Virus record (IMG/VR): IMGVR_UViG_3300042905_000668
Coordinates: 1 to 62,867 of that record
Length of the DNA: 62,867 bases
Reading direction: 5' to 3' (one strand)
Origin: a virus
Each line of letters opens with the position of its first letter. Within the stretch, counting starts at the first letter, position 1. The notes beneath the pieces were generated by a model. It ran no database searches, was not told the origin of the DNA, and saw only the letters and a list, made by a program, of their open reading frames with translations. The translations under genes were made by a program, and so were the position numbers. Shown one piece after another: positions 3,212 to 62,867 of this stretch.

Positions 3212-3457
3212 TCAGCAATTCCAAGCCCGTAGGCTCTTATTGATCCGTGAATCCGGATCGTTGGCGGTCTTGGCCGAAGTCAGCTTCTTTTTCATGCCGC
3301 TCATCCTCGCACAGAAAGAGTCTCGCCGGGAGCCGCCTTCTGGCTGGGGACGTTTCAAGTTCATGCCTTGCGCTTTCGCAGAGGCTCGGCCTTTGGCGTT
3401 CAAGCCGCCCTCGGGATTCTTGCCTTCTTTCCTCTGCCATGCTGGACTCTTAGCCAT
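3212..3457 (-). CDS. Small conserved phage protein, DUF6321-like (81 aa)
   Basis: The sequence AWQRKEGKNPEGGLNAKGRA, then NLKRPQPEGGSRRDSFCARM and TANDPDSRINKSLRAWNC, is a compact and strongly conserved phage pattern that I associate with DUF6321 (function unknown). The protein is very basic and ends in Cys, like two of its neighbours. The ATG at 3457 slightly overlaps the gene upstream. A role in capsid maturation or as a head protein fits its place just after the capsid genes, but nothing in the sequence proves it. Confidence 0.65.
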   Translation of the reverse strand: MAKSPAWQRKEGKNPEGGLNAKGRASAKAQGMNLKRPQPEGGSRRDSFCARMSGMKKKLTSAKTANDPDSRINKSLRAWNC

Positions 3458-14232: not shown

Positions 14233-14249
14233 TTTCCCACAGTGGGAAA
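14233..14249. promoter_or_regulatory. TTTCCCAC-A-GTGGGAAA palindrome, copy 1
   Basis: A perfect 17-base palindrome with a single central A. It belongs to a family of six copies between 14.2 and 17.4 kb (others at 15116, 15223, 15705, 16436 and 17369). It lies about 130 bases upstream of the first rightward gene. Confidence 0.75.
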
Positions 14250-14380
14250 ATCAATGCCCCGCCCTTGTAAATTTAGCCCTATCCCGTGCAAGCTATAACG
14301 TTTTATGGTGTAATACATTCATGGATCGAGAAGGTGCACTCGATACATACTCTTATTAACTTGCACTGATGAAAGTCTAT

Positions 14381-14890
14381 ATGACAAAACTCTCTTACGC
14401 GGCACAAGCCGCATCCGTTGCCACTGACTTAGTGGAAGCCAAAAAACACGATGATGCATCCGCATCATGCCGTGAAAGCGCAAATAAGCGCATTGCCGTC
14501 CTACACAAGGATAAGGTTGTTGTAGGACGCTACAGCAAAGACGGCACCGGATGCTCTACGGCAACGTCATTCGTTGATACGTTGACACAAGCCGGTTGGG
14601 CTAAAAAGACGGCTCAAAACTATTTGAGTCTTTTCAGGGAAGCCGTGAAAACCGGTAAGCCGGTGACTGACTGGGGCGGCACGAAAGCCGGAGGACGGCA
14701 AGCCGCCGCCGGTGCAAAGGGCGCGAAGGGCAAAAAAGAGTTTGCCGATAAGTTGGCAACATGTTTTCGTGATGCTGAATTCGAAGGGTTTTTAAATGAC
14801 CTCGAAGCATCTTTTCAAGATGATGAAATTGAAACCCTGATGGATGGTGTTAAATCCTACCTCGAAGCATCCGGCGTCAAGATCGACTGA
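14381..14890 (+). CDS. First rightward gene, unknown protein (169 aa)
   Basis: Not recognised. The start is set at ATG 14381 because it is preceded by GAAAG at the same spacing as several other early genes here; an in-frame ATG at 14369 has no ribosome site. The N-terminal part (residues about 1-90) is helical with SFVDTLTQAGWAKKTAQNYL, possibly an HTH-like unit. The middle is Gly/Ala/Lys-rich and flexible (KAGGRQAAAGAKGAKGKK). The C-terminus is acidic and helical. Gene position and its own strong terminator suggest an early, abundant DNA-binding or regulatory protein; this is inference. Confidence 0.6.
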   Translation: MTKLSYAAQAASVATDLVEAKKHDDASASCRESANKRIAVLHKDKVVVGRYSKDGTGCSTATSFVDTLTQAGWAKKTAQNYLSLFREAVKTGKPVTDWGGTKAGGRQAAAGAKGAKGKKEFADKLATCFRDAEFEGFLNDLEASFQDDEIETLMDGVKSYLEASGVKID

Positions 14891-14900
14891 TGCAACCCCA

Positions 14901-14934
14901 AAACCCCTGACCGAAAGGTTGGGGGTTTTTTTTT
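14901..14934 (+). terminator. Strong rho-independent terminator after the first early gene
   Basis: A 12-bp stem (14901-14912 with 14917-14928, including two G-T pairs) closed by a GAAA loop and continuing into a T9 run. It ends transcription of the gene at 14381-14890 and isolates it from the operon that starts downstream. Confidence 0.9.
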
Positions 14935-14976
14935 CGCCCAAAATTCCCCAATGAATACTTTTCCATTACCCTCATG

Positions 14977-14994
14977 CTTTTCCACGTGGAAAAG
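14977..14994. promoter_or_regulatory. CTTTTCCACGTGGAAAAG palindrome
   Basis: A perfect 18-base even palindrome centred on CACGTG. It precedes the first 26-base direct repeat by four bases, just as the palindrome at 15116-15138 precedes the second. It resembles both the TTTCCCAC-N-GTGGGAAA family and the parS core, but is identical to neither. Confidence 0.65.
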
Positions 14995-14998
14995 TTTT

Positions 14999-15024
14999 GA
15001 TAACTGTTCCCTCGATGCGGGCCG
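14999..15024. repeat. 26-base direct repeat, copy 1
   Basis: Begins GATAACTGTTCCCTCGAT and ends GCGGGCCG. It is identical to 15153-15178. Each copy lies downstream of a palindrome (4 and 14 bases away) and is followed by an acgc-containing stretch. Candidate origin iteron or regulator site. Confidence 0.7.
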
Positions 15025-15115
15025 TAAGACGCGCAATCTAATCATCCTACAAACAAGTTGCCACGTGTTTTATTTTTCAATCACACTACAAGATGTTGGC
15101 TGTGTGTTTTCTATC

Positions 15116-15138
15116 CTATTTCCCACAGTGGGAAATAG
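15116..15138. promoter_or_regulatory. TTTCCCAC-A-GTGGGAAA palindrome, extended copy 2
   Basis: The longest member: 11 bases either side of a central A (CTATTTCCCAC, then GTGGGAAATAG), all paired. It lies 14 bases before the second 26-base direct repeat. Confidence 0.8.
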
Positions 15139-15152
15139 TAACAACTTATACC

Positions 15153-15178
15153 GATAACTGTTCCCTCGATGCGGGCCG
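15153..15178. repeat. 26-base direct repeat, copy 2
   Basis: Identical to 14999-15024; the copies start 154 bases apart. No ORF spans them, so conservation points to a DNA- or RNA-level role. Confidence 0.7.
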
Positions 15179-15222
15179 CATTGACGCATACTGCGTTATG
15201 CCTCTTCCCACTGGTTGGAACG

Positions 15223-15241
15223 TTTTCCCACTGTGGGAAAA
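15223..15241. promoter_or_regulatory. TTTTCCCAC-T-GTGGGAAAA palindrome, copy 3
   Basis: A perfect 19-base palindrome with central T. It is nested inside a wider inverted repeat, TACTGCGTT (15189-15197) with AACGCAGTA (15255-15263), and lies just before the 33-base inverted repeat. Confidence 0.8.
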
Positions 15242-15270
15242 GTAAAGATGGTACAACGCAGTACTGCATA

Positions 15271-15598
15271 GCGTTTTATTCAATTATGCAAGAAAGTTCT
15301 GTGGCAACAGAATAATATAAACCTCAATCAAATCAAGCACTTGCAGTGGGTTTTCCCCCTATTATTCTATTATTCTCTAAAAATATATATATGAAGAGAC
15401 AATTTCAAAAACTACCAACTCTCCCCCATTTTTCTTTCTCTCACGTGATCTCTCACGCTCTTTCTCTTGTTTCTCTCTTATCTCGCAAATCAACAGAATA
15501 TTAGAACATTACCCCAAAACTCCCCCGCAACCCGCATCAGTACTGGCTTTGCTTTATTCCACGCTCACAGAACTTTGTTGCTTAATTGAATAAAACGC
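15271..15598. repeat. 328-bp noncoding element bounded by 33-base inverted repeats
   Basis: The left arm 15271-15303 (GCGTTTTATTCAATTATGCA...) and the right arm 15566-15598 are reverse complements at 31 of 33 positions. Similarity fades gradually further in. The tetranucleotide CATA directly flanks both outer ends (15267-15270 and 15599-15602), as a target-site duplication would. The interior has no ORF and includes the AT-rich tract CTAAAAATATATATATG. It is either a MITE-like insertion or a large cruciform/hairpin at an origin; a four-base direct repeat alone could be chance. Confidence 0.7.
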
Positions 15599-15632
15599 CA
15601 TACAGCAAGCACATATAACACACAGTAACAGC

Positions 15633-15661
15633 TTGACAACGGAGACTCTTTGTGTTAAAGT
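15633..15661 (+). promoter_or_regulatory. Sigma-70-like promoter for the early operon
   Basis: TTGACA (15633-15638), a 17-base spacer, then TAAAGT (15656-15661, 4 of 6 matches). It lies about 85 bases before the gene at 15746, with a palindrome (15705-15721) between promoter and gene. Confidence 0.65.
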
Positions 15662-15704
15662 AGAGGCTCAACACGTGAAAACATGTTGTAACGAAGTAGG
15701 GCAA

Positions 15705-15721
15705 TTTCCCACGGTGGGAAA
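15705..15721. promoter_or_regulatory. TTTCCCAC-G-GTGGGAAA palindrome, copy 4
   Basis: A 17-base palindrome with central G, placed in the leader of the gene at 15746, 24 bases before its start codon and about 44 bases after the promoter -10 box. A roadblock operator or an mRNA leader hairpin are both possible. Confidence 0.75.
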
Positions 15722-15745
15722 ACCCAATTAACCAAAGGAATCATC

Positions 15746-16102
15746 ATGACGAAAGCAAGAGTAAGTAACCGTGAAACACGTGACTACATCAAGAACCTGA
15801 AAGAGTTCAAGGCCAACAACATTTGGTCTGAGTGGTTGCGTGACGAGAACACCGACACCAACGATGCCCGTTACGTGGTCTATTCATACGACCGCCACTG
15901 GCCACTGTTTATCTACGAGGTCAAGACCGACATGTGGTTTGAGAACGCCAGTAAGTACAGCGTCACCACATCCAAGCACAAGACGCAAAGTCACCCACAT
16001 ACTGCCACGACCATGCTACACGTAGACGACATGATCAAAGTCAAGAACAATGGCGTAGTTGGCATGATCACACCCTTAACTTGGAGAGAGGTAACAGTAT
16101 GA
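15746..16102 (+). CDS. Early protein of unknown function (118 aa)
   Basis: A basic protein with a recognisable conserved phage pattern around ARYVVYSYDRHWPLFIYEVK, followed by a His/Thr-rich loop (SKHKTQSHPHTATTML) and a short C-terminal strand region. I do not know the family's function. It is the first gene after the 15633 promoter; ribosome site AAAGGA lies upstream of ATG 15746. It overlaps the next gene by four bases (ATGA). Confidence 0.7.
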   Translation: MTKARVSNRETRDYIKNLKEFKANNIWSEWLRDENTDTNDARYVVYSYDRHWPLFIYEVKTDMWFENASKYSVTTSKHKTQSHPHTATTMLHVDDMIKVKNNGVVGMITPLTWREVTV

Positions 16103-16272
16103 AATACCGAGGAACATTAGTTGTGTCTTACACCCAACAAATAGAAGTTGATGCCGAGACGCAAGCCGAAGCTGAAGACTTGATGCGAGAAGCATTTGAC
16201 CCAACACGTTGCTACAACACCGCCGAGTGCCAAGCATACGATGTAGAAGAAATTAAAGGGGAAGCAAAATGA
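16099..16272 (+). CDS. Small early protein (57 aa)
   Basis: Starts at ATG 16099 (MKYRGTLVVSY), preceded by GAGAGG, and overlaps the stop of the upstream gene. The pattern TQQIEVDAETQAEAEDLMRE with a beta start suggests a small alpha/beta fold of the type seen in DpnD/PcfM-like short phage proteins. Function unknown. Confidence 0.6.
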   Translation: MKYRGTLVVSYTQQIEVDAETQAEAEDLMREAFDPTRCYNTAECQAYDVEEIKGEAK

Positions 16273-16358
16273 CACGTGGAGAAAAGTTTGAGCGGGTAGT
16301 GTTCTTACTCTGCGTCATCGTACTGCTACTTGATCTCTTGTACTGGAGACCGGATTGA
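16269..16358 (+). CDS. Mini membrane protein (29 aa)
   Basis: A frame from ATG 16269 to TGA 16358, overlapping the upstream stop (ATGA). It encodes MTRGEKFERV followed by one hydrophobic helix (VFLLCVIVLLLDLLYW). Coupling and clear topology favour a real small membrane peptide, but the length makes it uncertain. Confidence 0.5.
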   Translation: MTRGEKFERVVFLLCVIVLLLDLLYWRPD

Positions 16359-16369
16359 TCGGCCACTAT

Positions 16370-16398
16370 TTGACACTCACCTGTCAACCTGTTATAGT
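16370..16398 (+). promoter_or_regulatory. Near-consensus sigma-70 promoter for the MoxR/VWA module
   Basis: TTGACA (16370-16375), a 17-base spacer and TATAGT (16393-16398): six of six and five of six consensus bases at ideal spacing. Transcription would begin near 16405, about 30 bases before the palindrome at 16436 and about 70 bases before the gene at 16478. This is the best host-type promoter seen in the window. Confidence 0.85.
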
Positions 16399-16435
16399 TA
16401 AGTCTGTGTTAGTTAAATGTGTAAGCAGATGTAAC

Positions 16436-16450
16436 TTCCCACTGTGGGAA
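16436..16450. promoter_or_regulatory. TTCCCAC-T-GTGGGAA palindrome, copy 5
   Basis: A 15-base palindrome in the leader between the strong promoter (16370) and the start of the first module gene (16478). Confidence 0.75.
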
Positions 16451-16477
16451 AACATCAACAACTGAAAGGTAATCATC

Positions 16478-17368
16478 ATGAGTAATTTTGCAATCGACTT
16501 GGGCAACTTCAGTGTGTCCAAACTTTCAAGCTCTGCGCTTATCGTCAACCTGTCCTTGTCTGTATGGACTGGCCGCAAACTGGACAAGCGTGTGTCCGAA
16601 GAGGTGGATCAACAGAACAGCACGAAGACCCGTGCCGGTAACTACCACAAGAATCTTTTGGCAGGGTCAAGCAAGCTGACCGAGATCACCAAGATCGCCA
16701 ATGCCATACGTGGTTGGATGTATGGTGTGACGCAACCATGGGGTGACAACGGTGACCGCATCTTGAACATGGCCTACTTCATGGAGTTCAAGGATCGACT
16801 GACTGACTACGAGTCTCAGTTCTCAACTGCTGTCAACAACTTTCTCAGTGACTACGACACACTGGTTGCGGCGGCGGCTTTCCAACTCGGTGACCTGTTC
16901 AACCGTGAGGACTACCCCACACGTGAGACCATCGAGGCCAAGTTCGGGTTCCGGTACAGCATGATCCCACTGCCACAAGCGGGTGACTTTCGTGTAGACA
17001 TCGGTGAGGATGGACTCAAGCAACTGCAATCACAGTACGAGGCTGTCTTACAGCAACGTGTTACTGGTGCTATGACCGAGGCATGGGAGCGTCTGCATGA
17101 CTGCCTGTCACGTATGTCAGAACGTCTTGAGGATAGCGATGATGGCAAGCGTAAGATTTTCCGTGACTCTCTTGTCGAGAACGCCATCGAGATTTGTGGC
17201 CTGTTGAAATCATTCAACATCACCAACGACACACGTATGGATGAGATGCGTAAGCAACTCGAAGATGCTATGCGTGGCGTAGATGCCGAGGCACTGCGTG
17301 ACAGCGACTCACTGCGTGAGCAGACCAAGCGCAAGGTCGATTCAATCTTGTCGAAGTTCGACATCTAA
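16478..17368 (+). CDS. DUF3150-like protein of a MoxR/VWA module (296 aa)
   Basis: Helical protein with no catalytic motif. Blocks GRKLDKRVSEEVDQQ, AGNYHKNLLAGSSKLTEI, VTQPWGDNGDRILNMAYFME and LGDLFNREDYPTRE match my recollection of DUF3150-type proteins encoded next to CobS/MoxR-like ATPases in phages. The C-terminal third is coiled (RMDEMRKQLEDAMRGVDAEA). It is the first gene after a near-consensus promoter and a palindrome, and precedes the AAA+ and VWA genes by short gaps. Probable role: a subunit or adaptor of that complex. Family name moderately sure, function unknown. Confidence 0.6.
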   Translation: MSNFAIDLGNFSVSKLSSSALIVNLSLSVWTGRKLDKRVSEEVDQQNSTKTRAGNYHKNLLAGSSKLTEITKIANAIRGWMYGVTQPWGDNGDRILNMAYFMEFKDRLTDYESQFSTAVNNFLSDYDTLVAAAAFQLGDLFNREDYPTRETIEAKFGFRYSMIPLPQAGDFRVDIGEDGLKQLQSQYEAVLQQRVTGAMTEAWERLHDCLSRMSERLEDSDDGKRKIFRDSLVENAIEICGLLKSFNITNDTRMDEMRKQLEDAMRGVDAEALRDSDSLREQTKRKVDSILSKFDI

Positions 17369-17383
17369 TTCCCACAGTGGGAA
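17369..17383. promoter_or_regulatory. TTCCCAC-A-GTGGGAA palindrome, copy 6
   Basis: A 15-base palindrome overlapping the end of the stop codon region of the first module gene and lying 35 bases before the AAA+ gene. Its place between two co-transcribed genes argues for an RNA-level function as well as a DNA-binding one. Confidence 0.75.
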
Positions 17384-30300: not shown

Positions 30301-31187
30301 GCGAAATGACACTATTTTCTAAGGGCGGCAACACACTACCCGCCCACCTGAAGAACCTACAATTAGACGCAACCACAAAAGCCTTGATGGGTGGCAGTGG
30401 TAACGGCGGCGGTAAGCGTATCTCCATTCGCGGCAACGTGTTCCGCATGATGGTTGATGGCAAAGAAATTGCACAGAACGAAGACCGTGCAATGAACATT
30501 ATTATTGCGGCGGCTAACGCCAACGTATCGAGAACATTTTATGCAGGAACTTATCAAGAAGGCCAAGCCATGGCACCCACATGTTGGTCAAACGATGGTG
30601 TCACACCCGACATCAAGTCTGAGCAACCACAAGCAAGCAAGTGTGCTTCATGCCAACAAAACATCAAAGGCTCCGGCCAAGGTGATTCCCGCGCATGCCG
30701 ATTTAGTCAACGCCTTGCCGTCCTCTTGGAGAACGATATTCGTGGAGACATTTATCAACTGACTCTCCCCGCGCAATCAATCTTTGGTGCGGCTGAGAAT
30801 GGCAAGATGCCTTTGCAGTCATACGCAAAGTTTTTGGGCAGTCATGGTTTGCCAGTAACCGCAGTCGTTACCGAGATGCGTTTTGATACTGCAAGCGCAA
30901 CACCACGCCTGACGTTCAAGGCAGTGCGTCCTTTGAACGAAGAAGAATTGGCAATGACCCAAGACAAGGGTCAGTCTACCGAAGCCAAACTTGCTATCGC
31001 CGCAACTGCCGCGCAGATGGATGGTGCTACTAAAGCGGAATTCATACGTCCCGCCGCAGTCGAAGCTCCCAAAGCGGAACCCAAGGTAGAGGCTGAAGCT
31101 GTTGAAACAGCAGAGCCAACTAAACGCGCTAAGAAAGCCGCACCAAAAGATGTGGCTGACATCTTGGACGATTGGGCTGAAGAGTAA
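30297..31187 (+). CDS. Probable single-stranded DNA-binding protein (296 aa)
   Basis: Core block GKRISIRGNVFRMMVDGKEI, then NVSRTFYAGTYQEGQAMAP and a cysteine set (C in PTCWSND, KCASCQQN, RACRFSQ) that may hold zinc. It continues VYQLTLPAQS-like and VTAVVTEMRFDT strands. The C-terminal 70 residues are Ala/Pro/Lys-rich and end in an acidic tail DILDDWAEE, as in SSB-type proteins that recruit partners. It lies between the helicase and the primase-helicase. The family is familiar from phage replication modules; the ssDNA-binding role is inferred. Confidence 0.6.
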   Translation: MSEMTLFSKGGNTLPAHLKNLQLDATTKALMGGSGNGGGKRISIRGNVFRMMVDGKEIAQNEDRAMNIIIAAANANVSRTFYAGTYQEGQAMAPTCWSNDGVTPDIKSEQPQASKCASCQQNIKGSGQGDSRACRFSQRLAVLLENDIRGDIYQLTLPAQSIFGAAENGKMPLQSYAKFLGSHGLPVTAVVTEMRFDTASATPRLTFKAVRPLNEEELAMTQDKGQSTEAKLAIAATAAQMDGATKAEFIRPAAVEAPKAEPKVEAEAVETAEPTKRAKKAAPKDVADILDDWAEE

Positions 31188-31918: not shown

Positions 31919-34762
31919 ATGACAACACGGAACCCCTTTCTCACATCTGTACTTGCCTCTGAAGGTTTGTACTGTGTGGTTGGATTGAAGAAGGGTGCGC
32001 CGAGGCAGACTTTTGTAGAAACGATTGATGAGATTGATGGAGTCGTAGATGGACTTATCTCGCAGGGTTTTGACGCATACTTTGGATGCGCTAAATATCT
32101 TTTGGAAGATGAAGGTCGCACAGCAAAGAACGCAAAATGGTTTAAGGCTTTTTGGCTTGACCTAGATTGCGGTGAAAACAAACCATACGACACGCAAGCA
32201 TCCGCATTGGATGCACTCAGAATATTTGTTAAAGCAACAGGGTTACCTCGACCCACTATCATTAACTCAGGACGTGGCATACACGTTTACTGGACGCTGA
32301 AGGAGACCATCGGTTACAACGATTGGAAACCAACAGCCGAAGCACTGAAGAAATTCTGTGCCTCATACAATCTGCTTGCTGACCCTGCGGTCACGGCAGA
32401 TGCCGCACGAATACTGCGTATACCCGAGACGTTGAACTTCAAGGACAACCCGCCAAAGCCTGTATCTGTAATGGTCGAGTCGCAGCCGGTAGAGTTCACA
32501 CGGTTCAAGACGTTGATAGGTGTAGAAGAGGAAGACGATGAACCGAAAGGTTTGTTTGGTTCTGACGCACCACCACGCCGCCCAATAGATGCAACGACCC
32601 GCGCATTGATGGGTAACAGTGTGTCCCGTTTTGGGACTATCATGCGCAAGAGTGTCGAGGGTGAGGGGTGCGCACAACTACTGCGTATCTATAAAGAGCA
32701 AGAGACCGTTGAGGAGCCGCTATGGAGAGCGGGTCTGTCTATCGCCATTAACTGCGAAGACGGTGAGAAAGCGATCCACAAGATCAGCAATCAGCACCCT
32801 GAGTACGACCCGCAAGAGACGTTCAACAAAGCACACGCATTATTGGAGAAGCCATACAAGTGCGCTACGTTCTCAAGCATTAACTCTGCACCCTGCAACG
32901 ACTGCCCACACAAGGGCAAGATTACTTCACCGATTCAGATTGGTTCACGCATTGCCGAAGCCAAGGCAGAAGACAACATCGTTGTCATGCGCAACGCCAT
33001 ACTGGAAGAGGAAGTCACGGTTGAAATACCTGACTACCCATACCCATACTTTCGTGGCAAGAACGGCGGTGTGTACAAGCGGGGTTGGGGTAAAGATGAG
33101 AAGGGTGAAGATGAAAAGGACGAGTTGATCTACGAGTACGACTTCTATGTCGTGAAGCGGTTGACTGATCCTGATACAGGAGAATCTTTGTGGATGCGCT
33201 TGCACATGCCCAAGGATGGAATCCGTGAATTCTCCGCGCCACTATCAAGCGTTTTATCTAAGGACAAGTTGCGGGAAGTCTTGGCATACCAAGGCGTCAC
33301 TGCATACAACAAGAGATTGGATTTACTTATGGGCTACATCACCAAGTGGGTGCAAGAACTTCAGCACCTGACAGAAGCAGAAAAGGCACGTCAACAATTT
33401 GGTTGGCATGAAGACGATACCAAGTTTGTTATTGGTAATCGTGAGGTCACGGCATCGGGCGTGAACTACAGCCCGTCATCTAATGCCACTGCGGAGATTG
33501 CAAGCTACTACACCAAGAAAGGTACAGTTGCCGAGTGGAAGAAAGTTGCCAACATCTACGCCGCCGCAGGGAATGAAGTACGTGCGTTCACACTTTTTGC
33601 AGGATTTGGTTCAGCGTTATTTAAGTTCACAAAACTTAATGGCTCCATCATTCACCTGACAAACAATGGCTCCGGTGTAGGTAAGACAACAATTCAGCTT
33701 GCGGTCAACAGCATTTGGGGTAGACCCCTTGAACCCTTGATGAACCAAGAGGATAAGTACTTGGCACGTATGCACCGTATCGCAGTGCTTGGCAATATAC
33801 CCCCTACCATTGATGAGTTGACCAACATGGGGGATGAGGAAGTCAGTGCGATGGCGTACGCTATTACGCACGGTCGGGGTCGCAACCGTATGCAGTCACA
33901 GTCTAATGCTGAACGTAGTAATTCACTGCGCTGGAATTCGATTGCGATTACATCAGGCAACAAGAGTTTGTACGATCAGTTGTATAACCTCAAAGACTTT
34001 CCGGAGGGCGAACTGATGCGGGTACTGGAGTTTGCAGTTGCCAAGAACGACACCCTGAGTAAGGCCGAGTCTGACTTGATGTTCAACCCCATGTACGAGA
34101 ACTACGGTGTAGCCGGAGAAATCTTTATACGTTATGTGATTGCCAACCTACCGGAAGTTCAACGTCTATTGAATGCGATTCAACGCAAGTTTGATAAGGC
34201 CGCAGGGTTTACACAACGTGAACGCTTTTGGTCTGCGACAGCGGCATGTGCTCTGACATCCGGCATCATTGCTAAGAAGTTAGGCTTGCATGATATTGAT
34301 GTATCCGCAGTCTACAAATGGGCAGTGGAAACTCTAAGCAGTATGCGCATTGAAGTCCGCGCTGACAGCATGACACCACTGAGCCGCATCGGTATGTTCT
34401 TGAACGAGAAGAACAACAACATGTTGATCGTGAAGAGCACGGTTGATAAGCGGTCGGGTTTGTTTGAATCACCAATACGGGAACCCCGTGGGGAGTTGAT
34501 GACCCGCTACGAGCCGGATACCAAACTGTTGTTTATCTCCACTAAGGCACTGCGTGAGTGGTGTAGCGAGAACCAAATATCCTATAAGATGGTGTGCGCT
34601 GATCTACAGAAGGCCAAGATCATCAAAGGTATTATTAAGAAGAGCATGTCTAAAGGTTCTGATATGACCACACCCTCGGTGTTTGCACTGATGATTGACT
34701 GCGCTGTTGCTACTGACCTTGATCCGGAAGTAGAAACTATTACCCATGACGATAACGGCTGA
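31919..34762 (+). CDS. AEP primase-DUF927 helicase fusion (947 aa)
   Basis: The N-terminal AEP/RepB-like primase has D81 and D83 in FWLDLDCGEN and a later NSGRGIHVYW with H122. A Cys-rich stretch (APCNDCPHKG) may be a zinc knuckle. The C-terminal half is a DUF927-type helicase with Walker A GSGVGKTT (K589) and PPTIDELTNMGDEEV as Walker B/sensor region. The fusion can both prime and unwind DNA, so with PolA it forms a near-minimal replisome. ATG 31919 follows an AAAAGAGAAAAC leader. The length is typical for such fusions. Confidence 0.85.
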   Translation: MTTRNPFLTSVLASEGLYCVVGLKKGAPRQTFVETIDEIDGVVDGLISQGFDAYFGCAKYLLEDEGRTAKNAKWFKAFWLDLDCGENKPYDTQASALDALRIFVKATGLPRPTIINSGRGIHVYWTLKETIGYNDWKPTAEALKKFCASYNLLADPAVTADAARILRIPETLNFKDNPPKPVSVMVESQPVEFTRFKTLIGVEEEDDEPKGLFGSDAPPRRPIDATTRALMGNSVSRFGTIMRKSVEGEGCAQLLRIYKEQETVEEPLWRAGLSIAINCEDGEKAIHKISNQHPEYDPQETFNKAHALLEKPYKCATFSSINSAPCNDCPHKGKITSPIQIGSRIAEAKAEDNIVVMRNAILEEEVTVEIPDYPYPYFRGKNGGVYKRGWGKDEKGEDEKDELIYEYDFYVVKRLTDPDTGESLWMRLHMPKDGIREFSAPLSSVLSKDKLREVLAYQGVTAYNKRLDLLMGYITKWVQELQHLTEAEKARQQFGWHEDDTKFVIGNREVTASGVNYSPSSNATAEIASYYTKKGTVAEWKKVANIYAAAGNEVRAFTLFAGFGSALFKFTKLNGSIIHLTNNGSGVGKTTIQLAVNSIWGRPLEPLMNQEDKYLARMHRIAVLGNIPPTIDELTNMGDEEVSAMAYAITHGRGRNRMQSQSNAERSNSLRWNSIAITSGNKSLYDQLYNLKDFPEGELMRVLEFAVAKNDTLSKAESDLMFNPMYENYGVAGEIFIRYVIANLPEVQRLLNAIQRKFDKAAGFTQRERFWSATAACALTSGIIAKKLGLHDIDVSAVYKWAVETLSSMRIEVRADSMTPLSRIGMFLNEKNNNMLIVKSTVDKRSGLFESPIREPRGELMTRYEPDTKLLFISTKALREWCSENQISYKMVCADLQKAKIIKGIIKKSMSKGSDMTTPSVFALMIDCAVATDLDPEVETITHDDNG

Positions 34763-61952: not shown

Positions 61953-62381
61953 TTATGTAACTGTAACCGTAACTGTACCAAGTTCTATCGCTAACACCAA
62001 GTTATTTGGCGTTAAAAGTGTATCAAACCCACTTGCACCACCAACAGGGTTGTACCCCCACTGAAACACCCGACTGCCTTGCTCTGGATAGCCAAACCCA
62101 TCTTGAGTGGTGCTATCCGTTAACAGAATCTGTAAGCCACTTTGACCAGAGACTTGATAGCTCACATCAGGACGCGGCTCACGCACAGCTTGCGGATCAT
62201 TGACTGGATACATACCCAGTTGCAACTGCGGCTGATCGGGATCCCAGCATGCGGGGCACACCTTGATATTAAATGGCTTGGTCTTGACAATCTGTGTCTT
62301 TAATTCCTTGAGCTTATACCTCTGCGAACATCTGTCGCATTCAGCAATTGCATGTTTGCCTGATGCAAATTTACTAGGCAT
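61953..62381 (-). CDS. Zinc-ribbon protein, right (complete) copy (142 aa)
   Basis: Start at ATG 62381 (MPSKFASGKHAIAECDRCSQ), with AAGGAA about ten bases upstream. The first CxxC is at ECDRC, the second at VCPACWD. The C-terminal half is beta-rich (GFGYPEQGSRVFQWGYNPVG). Counterpart of the truncated gene at 1-352. Probably a small structural protein held together by zinc. Confidence 0.75.
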   Translation of the reverse strand: MPSKFASGKHAIAECDRCSQRYKLKELKTQIVKTKPFNIKVCPACWDPDQPQLQLGMYPVNDPQAVREPRPDVSYQVSGQSGLQILLTDSTTQDGFGYPEQGSRVFQWGYNPVGGASGFDTLLTPNNLVLAIELGTVTVTVT

Positions 62382-62867
62382 AGAACGTATTCCTTGGCAC
62401 AAACCTCAACGGAGAGGTATCGCGGTCTTCTGCTTCAGCCAAAAGCCATTGCTGTTCATACTCAGCCTTTAGCGCCATCACACGATTGGGATCCATATCT
62501 GGCAACTTCATACTCAACAGATAAGCCAATCCTGCCACCATGCAGGGGATAAAACGGAACGGAATATCCTGCACGTTTACACCTGTGCCAGCGTCCTGAA
62601 TACGGCGCATGCGGTAGTACACAAACATGTACTGATCTCCGGGGGCGTTAGGTGTAGGCCACACATTGATAGCAGGTAGGTTCTGCACGGTTATAGCTGC
62701 ACCAGTAGTATGCGCCGCAGCGGTTGTGCCATTCTGTCCACGAGCGCAGTTTAACAACTGGTTGTTTACAGGGTCTATGTTGGGGTAACTGATGGTCTCA
62801 TTATCAATCTTGATAAACCCAGCAGTGGTCAAACCGTCCACATTAGACAACGTGATTGTGGTGGCTG
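62030..62867. repeat. Diverged terminal direct repeat, right copy
   Basis: Colinear with 1-838 at about 91% identity, no gaps. Identity is highest (about 98%) over the last 200 bases and lowest around 62310-62500. The window ends inside this repeat. Confidence 0.9.
62374..62867 (-). CDS. Head-tail connector-like protein, right copy (5' end cut by window edge)
   Basis: The frame is open to the right edge; the visible part starts within the inserted beta module (TTITLSNVDGLTTAGFIKID) and runs to the same C-terminus as the complete copy (PLRFVPRNTFYA against PLRFVPRNLFYA). Differences cluster in the C-terminal 40 residues (QQWLLAEAEDRD against QQWELAQSEDRD). Most third-position changes suggest that both versions are functional. 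Confidence 0.75.
   Translation of the reverse strand, partial: ATTITLSNVDGLTTAGFIKIDNETISYPNIDPVNNQLLNCARGQNGTTAAAHTTGAAITVQNLPAINVWPTPNAPGDQYMFVYYRMRRIQDAGTGVNVQDIPFRFIPCMVAGLAYLLSMKLPDMDPNRVMALKAEYEQQWLLAEAEDRDTSPLRFVPRNTFYA

Follow-up and report, generated by a model that had tools for sequence, protein, structure and literature searches.

A mirror-image iteron element with inverted-repeat arms is a probable replication origin in a group of uncultured phages

The closest described systems to the locus considered here are the replication origins of phage-inducible chromosomal islands (PICIs), both the Staphylococcus aureus pathogenicity islands (SaPIs) and the Gram-negative PICIs. In SaPI replication initiators (Reps), the carboxy-terminal domain recognises the iterons of the origin; the DUF927 helicases include relatives of the SaPIBov1 Rep, among them Cch of the staphylococcal cassette chromosome mec (SCCmec), which bears a DUF927 domain (PMC7581432). 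Here we describe an inverted-repeat element, at 15264–15605 of a viral record of 62,867 bases (IMGVR_UViG_3300042905_000668, labelled G000; this whole stretch is the window), which is probably a replication origin. With the PICI and SaPI origins it shares an AT-rich region with an iteron set on either side, and a helicase of the SaPI Rep/Cch initiator type is encoded in the same genome; it differs from them in its short mirror-image iterons, its long covarying arms and its consensus site for the integration host factor (IHF). The putative SCCmec origin is likewise intergenic and conserved, contains direct as well as inverted repeats and has the homologous helicase Cch; it was tested with Cch2, from another helicase family, and deletion of the inverted repeats left Cch2 binding unaffected (PMC7581432). 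Initiator repeats adjoining an AT-rich stretch are also found in the lambda origin (PMC5043065), where, unlike here, the repeats lie within the O gene and the initiator leads to loading of the host DnaB. The iteron plasmid origins R6K gamma and pSC101 have iterons, an AT-rich region and IHF in common with the element (PMC5043065), whereas their iterons are mostly direct and they employ DnaA as well. By eye, the element contains no recognisable DnaA box.

The element is bounded by a left arm (positions 15264–15303, plus strand) and a right arm (15566–15605, minus strand), each 40 nucleotides long, 36/40 complementary (90%) and 262 nucleotides apart. At a threshold of 31 matches in 33 positions and a span of up to 600 bp, it is the only inverted repeat in the window, and there is none in 20 dinucleotide-shuffled windows. 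The 33-nucleotide inverted repeats reported in a first-pass annotation of the sequence are thus real and fall inside these longer arms. The other anatomical features listed there also hold: CATA is present at both ends in this genome (15267–15270 and 15599–15602), an AT-rich tract is enclosed (15378–15393), and the interior lacks a convincing gene, the sole open reading frame of at least 50 codons between the arms encoding 52 amino acids (15346–15504).

Within this frame, copies of the iteron TTATTC, or GAATAA on the other strand, are arranged as a mirror image around the AT run. Reading from the left, there is a forward copy in the left arm (15276–15281), a reverse copy (15310–15315, minus strand), which keeps its relative position in 18/19 representative elements, and two tandem forward copies, TATTATTC TATTATTC (15360–15375, plus strand). 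These adjoin the AT run TAAAAATATATATATG (15378–15393), the presumed DNA unwinding element. After a variable, pyrimidine-rich spacer (15394–15495) follow two reverse copies, GAATATTA and the degenerate GAACATTA (15496–15511, minus strand), a forward copy (15554–15559, plus strand) and a reverse copy in the right arm (15588–15593). This layout is nearly fixed among relatives. The tandem iterons are the most strictly conserved part, TATTATTCTATTATTC, followed by the AT run. Across 19 elements the motif occurs 112 times with 10 expected, an enrichment of about 11-fold; when one-base variants are included, there are 3–12 per element (usually 7–9), compared with about one in shuffled sequences. The stretch from the left arm to the tandem iterons also contains a match to the IHF consensus WATCAAnnnnTTR (PMC10380432), AATCAAGCACTTG (15331–15343, plus strand). 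It is perfect at this position in 25/35 elements; its N positions differ among relatives while the fixed positions are mostly kept, and several lineages carry a second copy of the consensus on the right side. One relative, L100 (G012, 30686–30864), carries the CCCTATTATTCTATTATTC core twice, once on either side of the spacer, as inverted copies that match almost perfectly; the flanking AATCAAGnACTT repeat is in direct orientation.

Relatives were gathered with two protein queries, one arm word and a core pattern; G021–G023 (about 55% helicase identity), G028 and G029 were left out, their contigs apparently lacking the diverging region. The element was found in more than 30 distinct related viral contigs, at a shared locus and in one orientation relative to the genes. 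It is single-copy in 20/20 records searched, the distance between shared arm anchors is 320–323 bp, and similar elements are still present in much more diverged relatives. In one relative (L079, G007) the core DNA is 90% identical over 83 nucleotides, while the protein of the adjacent 173-residue gene is 49% identical. Other contigs sharing one 16-nucleotide arm word lack the element; searching the core pattern in bacterial genomes returned just three stretches, all unrelated, and no DNA similarity of the window to known phages was found. With a strict scan for long inverted repeats, the element was not distinguished in all genomes, and G010, G011 and G004 yielded no such repeat; the arms by themselves therefore cannot serve as a universal marker.

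The location fits an origin. The element lies near the point where the gene blocks diverge, with structural genes leftward and early genes rightward, and in 10/10 genomes the cumulative GC-skew minimum is 131–1642 bp from the core, together with diverging gene blocks. The lowest-GC 300 bp of the genome is also at the element in 10/10 genomes, by a narrow margin in two; in the window the value is 0.373 at 15200 and 0.377 elsewhere.

The presumed initiator is a helicase of 947 amino acids (31919–34762, plus strand) with a primase-like amino-terminus and a winged-helix-like carboxy-terminus. Its DUF927 domain is recognised with an E-value of 1.5e-29 (104 bits, with a Pfam cut-off of 22.6), and in profile searches the protein matches SCCmec Cch at 2e-7 and a SaPIBov1 protein at 5e-6. 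The carboxy-terminal domain was modelled with a predicted local distance difference test score (pLDDT) of 72; the full-length model was set aside (pLDDT 51). In the PDB, the carboxy-terminal model has SCCmec Cch (E-value 0.05) and the SaPIBov1 replication initiator (E-value 0.07) as its two best-ranked folds, with a match probability of 0.92–0.94.

A similar design appears to exist in a cultured phage. Pseudomonas phage Rollin (OR577172, L148) encodes a helicase 31.6% identical to that of the window, and its positions 1–1000 have the lowest GC content of the genome, nested inverted repeats and one of two IHF consensus sites. There are eight TATGCAA iterons in this region, where shuffled sequences have a mean of 0.2: three forward copies in 22-bp steps, the IHF site, three reverse copies in 9-bp steps abutting an AT run, then one forward and one reverse copy. 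Judged from sequence, the two regions are alike in design, with different iteron sequences. In Rhizobium phage RHph_TM3_14A (60.9 kb; helicase identity 24%), the AT minimum and both IHF sites are in a 770-bp noncoding gap at the corresponding place. There, long-range complementarity is weak (score 34; shuffled sequences average 25 and reach 38), no clear iteron stands above shuffles, and the GC skew reaches its minimum at 17113, about 2.2 kb ahead of the gap.

Together, location, GC skew, AT minimum, iterons, IHF site, initiator homology and the Rollin parallel favour the replication origin that the first-pass annotation had named as an alternative. The best explanation, which we consider probable, is an initiator-dependent phage origin like those described for phage-inducible islands. 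Beyond anatomy and homology, we infer the following course. The mirror-image iterons flanking the AT run would bind the DUF927 helicase of the phage via its carboxy-terminal winged helix, and host IHF would bend the DNA at 15331, joining the two iteron sets. The AT run would then melt, two helicase rings could load facing opposite ways, and forks would depart bidirectionally, so that both gene blocks would be transcribed along with the fork. The arms are most likely additional initiator sites whose symmetry is maintained.

Several observations weigh against this proposal. Gene direction and the C-richness of the element are both confounders of the GC skew, which is therefore consistent with an origin rather than proof of one; in Rollin the skew shows no clean turn at the proposed origin (minimum at 3290). 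The iterons are short and AT-rich, L015–L018, L096 and L103 have no perfect IHF site, and the carboxy-terminal fold match is weak, though top-ranked. Finally, the genome is that of a full-size phage, and 16 kb separate the element (15.4 kb) from the helicase gene (31.9–34.8 kb), whereas in SaPIs the origin is directly downstream. As this hallmark of PICI and SaPI origins, a position directly 3' of the rep gene, is absent, the element would work like such an origin without being a member of the class.

The conservation of the arms bears on whether a folded form is involved. Arm covariation was analysed in 18 elements with paired arms, over 24 arm pairs. Of the arm cells, 85% are Watson-Crick, 16 of the 24 pairs show two or more Watson-Crick types, and in slid controls pairing drops to roughly a third. 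Cognate arms pair with a mean of -34 kcal/mol and swapped arms with -22 kcal/mol, a comparison in which kinship is ignored. Compensatory changes keep the arms complementary in most lineages, in line with the giant hairpin or cruciform suggested by the first-pass annotation; in L007, L015, L020, L099 and L100, however, pairing is largely lost while the iterons and the rest of the element are intact. The functional form at the origin might be such a structure, extruded or folded from a single strand and recognised as a structure, but we regard this as unlikely: besides the five mostly unpaired lineages, a 262-nucleotide loop is poor for a cruciform, and template-switch correction of quasi-palindromes could yield the same pattern without selection. 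It is similarly doubtful that the origin acts via DNA secondary structure, with hairpins formed on melting that place the two helicase rings, which would make the arms more than binding sites. L007, L015 and L020 combine a second-type right arm (AGAATAA...) with a window-like left arm, which looks like recombination within the element.

The palindrome TTCCCACnGTGGGAA occurs in six exact copies (14234, 15120, 15225, 15706, 16436 and 17369; 0.25 expected), confined to 14234–17383 around the element and found nowhere else in the window. Relatives have TTTCATACcGTATGAAA, TTTCGTACtGTACGAAA or CTTCATATcATATGAAG in its place, mostly one kind per genome, and the sequences of these palindromes suggest an operator that differs in specificity from phage to phage. 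With the promoter that follows the element, they could suggest, instead of an origin, a control or partition region where a regulator or segregation protein would bind the arms and palindromes. This is improbable, since the palindromes vary between relatives while the core iterons stay constant, and it leaves the AT run, the skew minimum and the initiator homology unexplained.

A structured non-coding RNA of about 330 nucleotides, transcribed from one strand with the arms as its terminal stem, is about equally improbable. Single sequences fold strongly on both strands (z -7.5), the arms covary, and a leftward TTGTCA with TATATG 16 bp further, just outside the right arm, could start transcription there; this pair is weak and not kept in all relatives. 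The RNAalifold consensus energy over 359 columns is just -4.7 (plus) and -1.8 (minus) kcal/mol, however, no Rfam family was matched, and in L098 and L099 a reading frame begins directly after the right arm. Among 432 arm cells there are 7 G-T (plus strand), 13 A-C and 45 other mismatches, without clear wobble preference. The RNA was downgraded because there is almost no common fold and covariation is restricted to the arms; together with the lack of wobble preference, this makes the pairing look like symmetry at the DNA level. A switch in which a recombinase flips the interior between the inverted arms can be dismissed, as at every gene-oriented locus the interior faces the same way with respect to the neighbouring genes. 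The same is true of the first-pass claim of a miniature inverted-repeat transposable element (MITE), or other recent insertion, despite its inverted terminal repeats, gene-free interior and flanking CATA: locus and size are common to relatives (on the annotation's own terms evidence against recent insertion), no empty site was seen among related contigs with the locus and no second copy in the 20 records, and the right-hand CATA, replaced by TTCC, TTTC, TTAC, TACA or similar in all 10 relatives with alignable arms, is confined to this genome and so is not a target-site duplication.

The element is flanked on one side by the 173-residue gene (14369–14890), with a terminator-like site behind it at 14900, and on the other by a promoter-like site, TTGACA-17-TAAAGT (15633–15661, plus strand), which points into the early gene block and is conserved in the alignment. 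Its -35 region, CTTGACAAC, is nearly self-complementary, with CTTGACAAG in many relatives. A 26-bp perfect direct repeat, GATAACTGTTCCCTCGATGCGGGCCG, is present at 14999–15024 and 15153–15178, and relatives carry the similar ACCTGTATCCTCGAAGTTGGCCGTA. In Rollin, four palindromes AAAAGGTAGyAAsTTrCTACCTTTT (positions 1–497) surround the putative origin, in positions comparable to those of the TTCCCAC palindromes of the window. The window ends (345–1277 and 62374–62850) encode near-identical stretches of one protein, with few residues different, which points to either gene duplication or an inexact overlap of the ends.

If the proposal is correct, this group of uncultured phages would gain an assigned origin, and a design regarded in the PICI literature as island-specific would extend to whole phages, which would bear on the source of the replication module of the islands. 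The covariation of the arms, together with the lineages that have lost pairing, offers a direct way to test what inverted repeats do at such origins.
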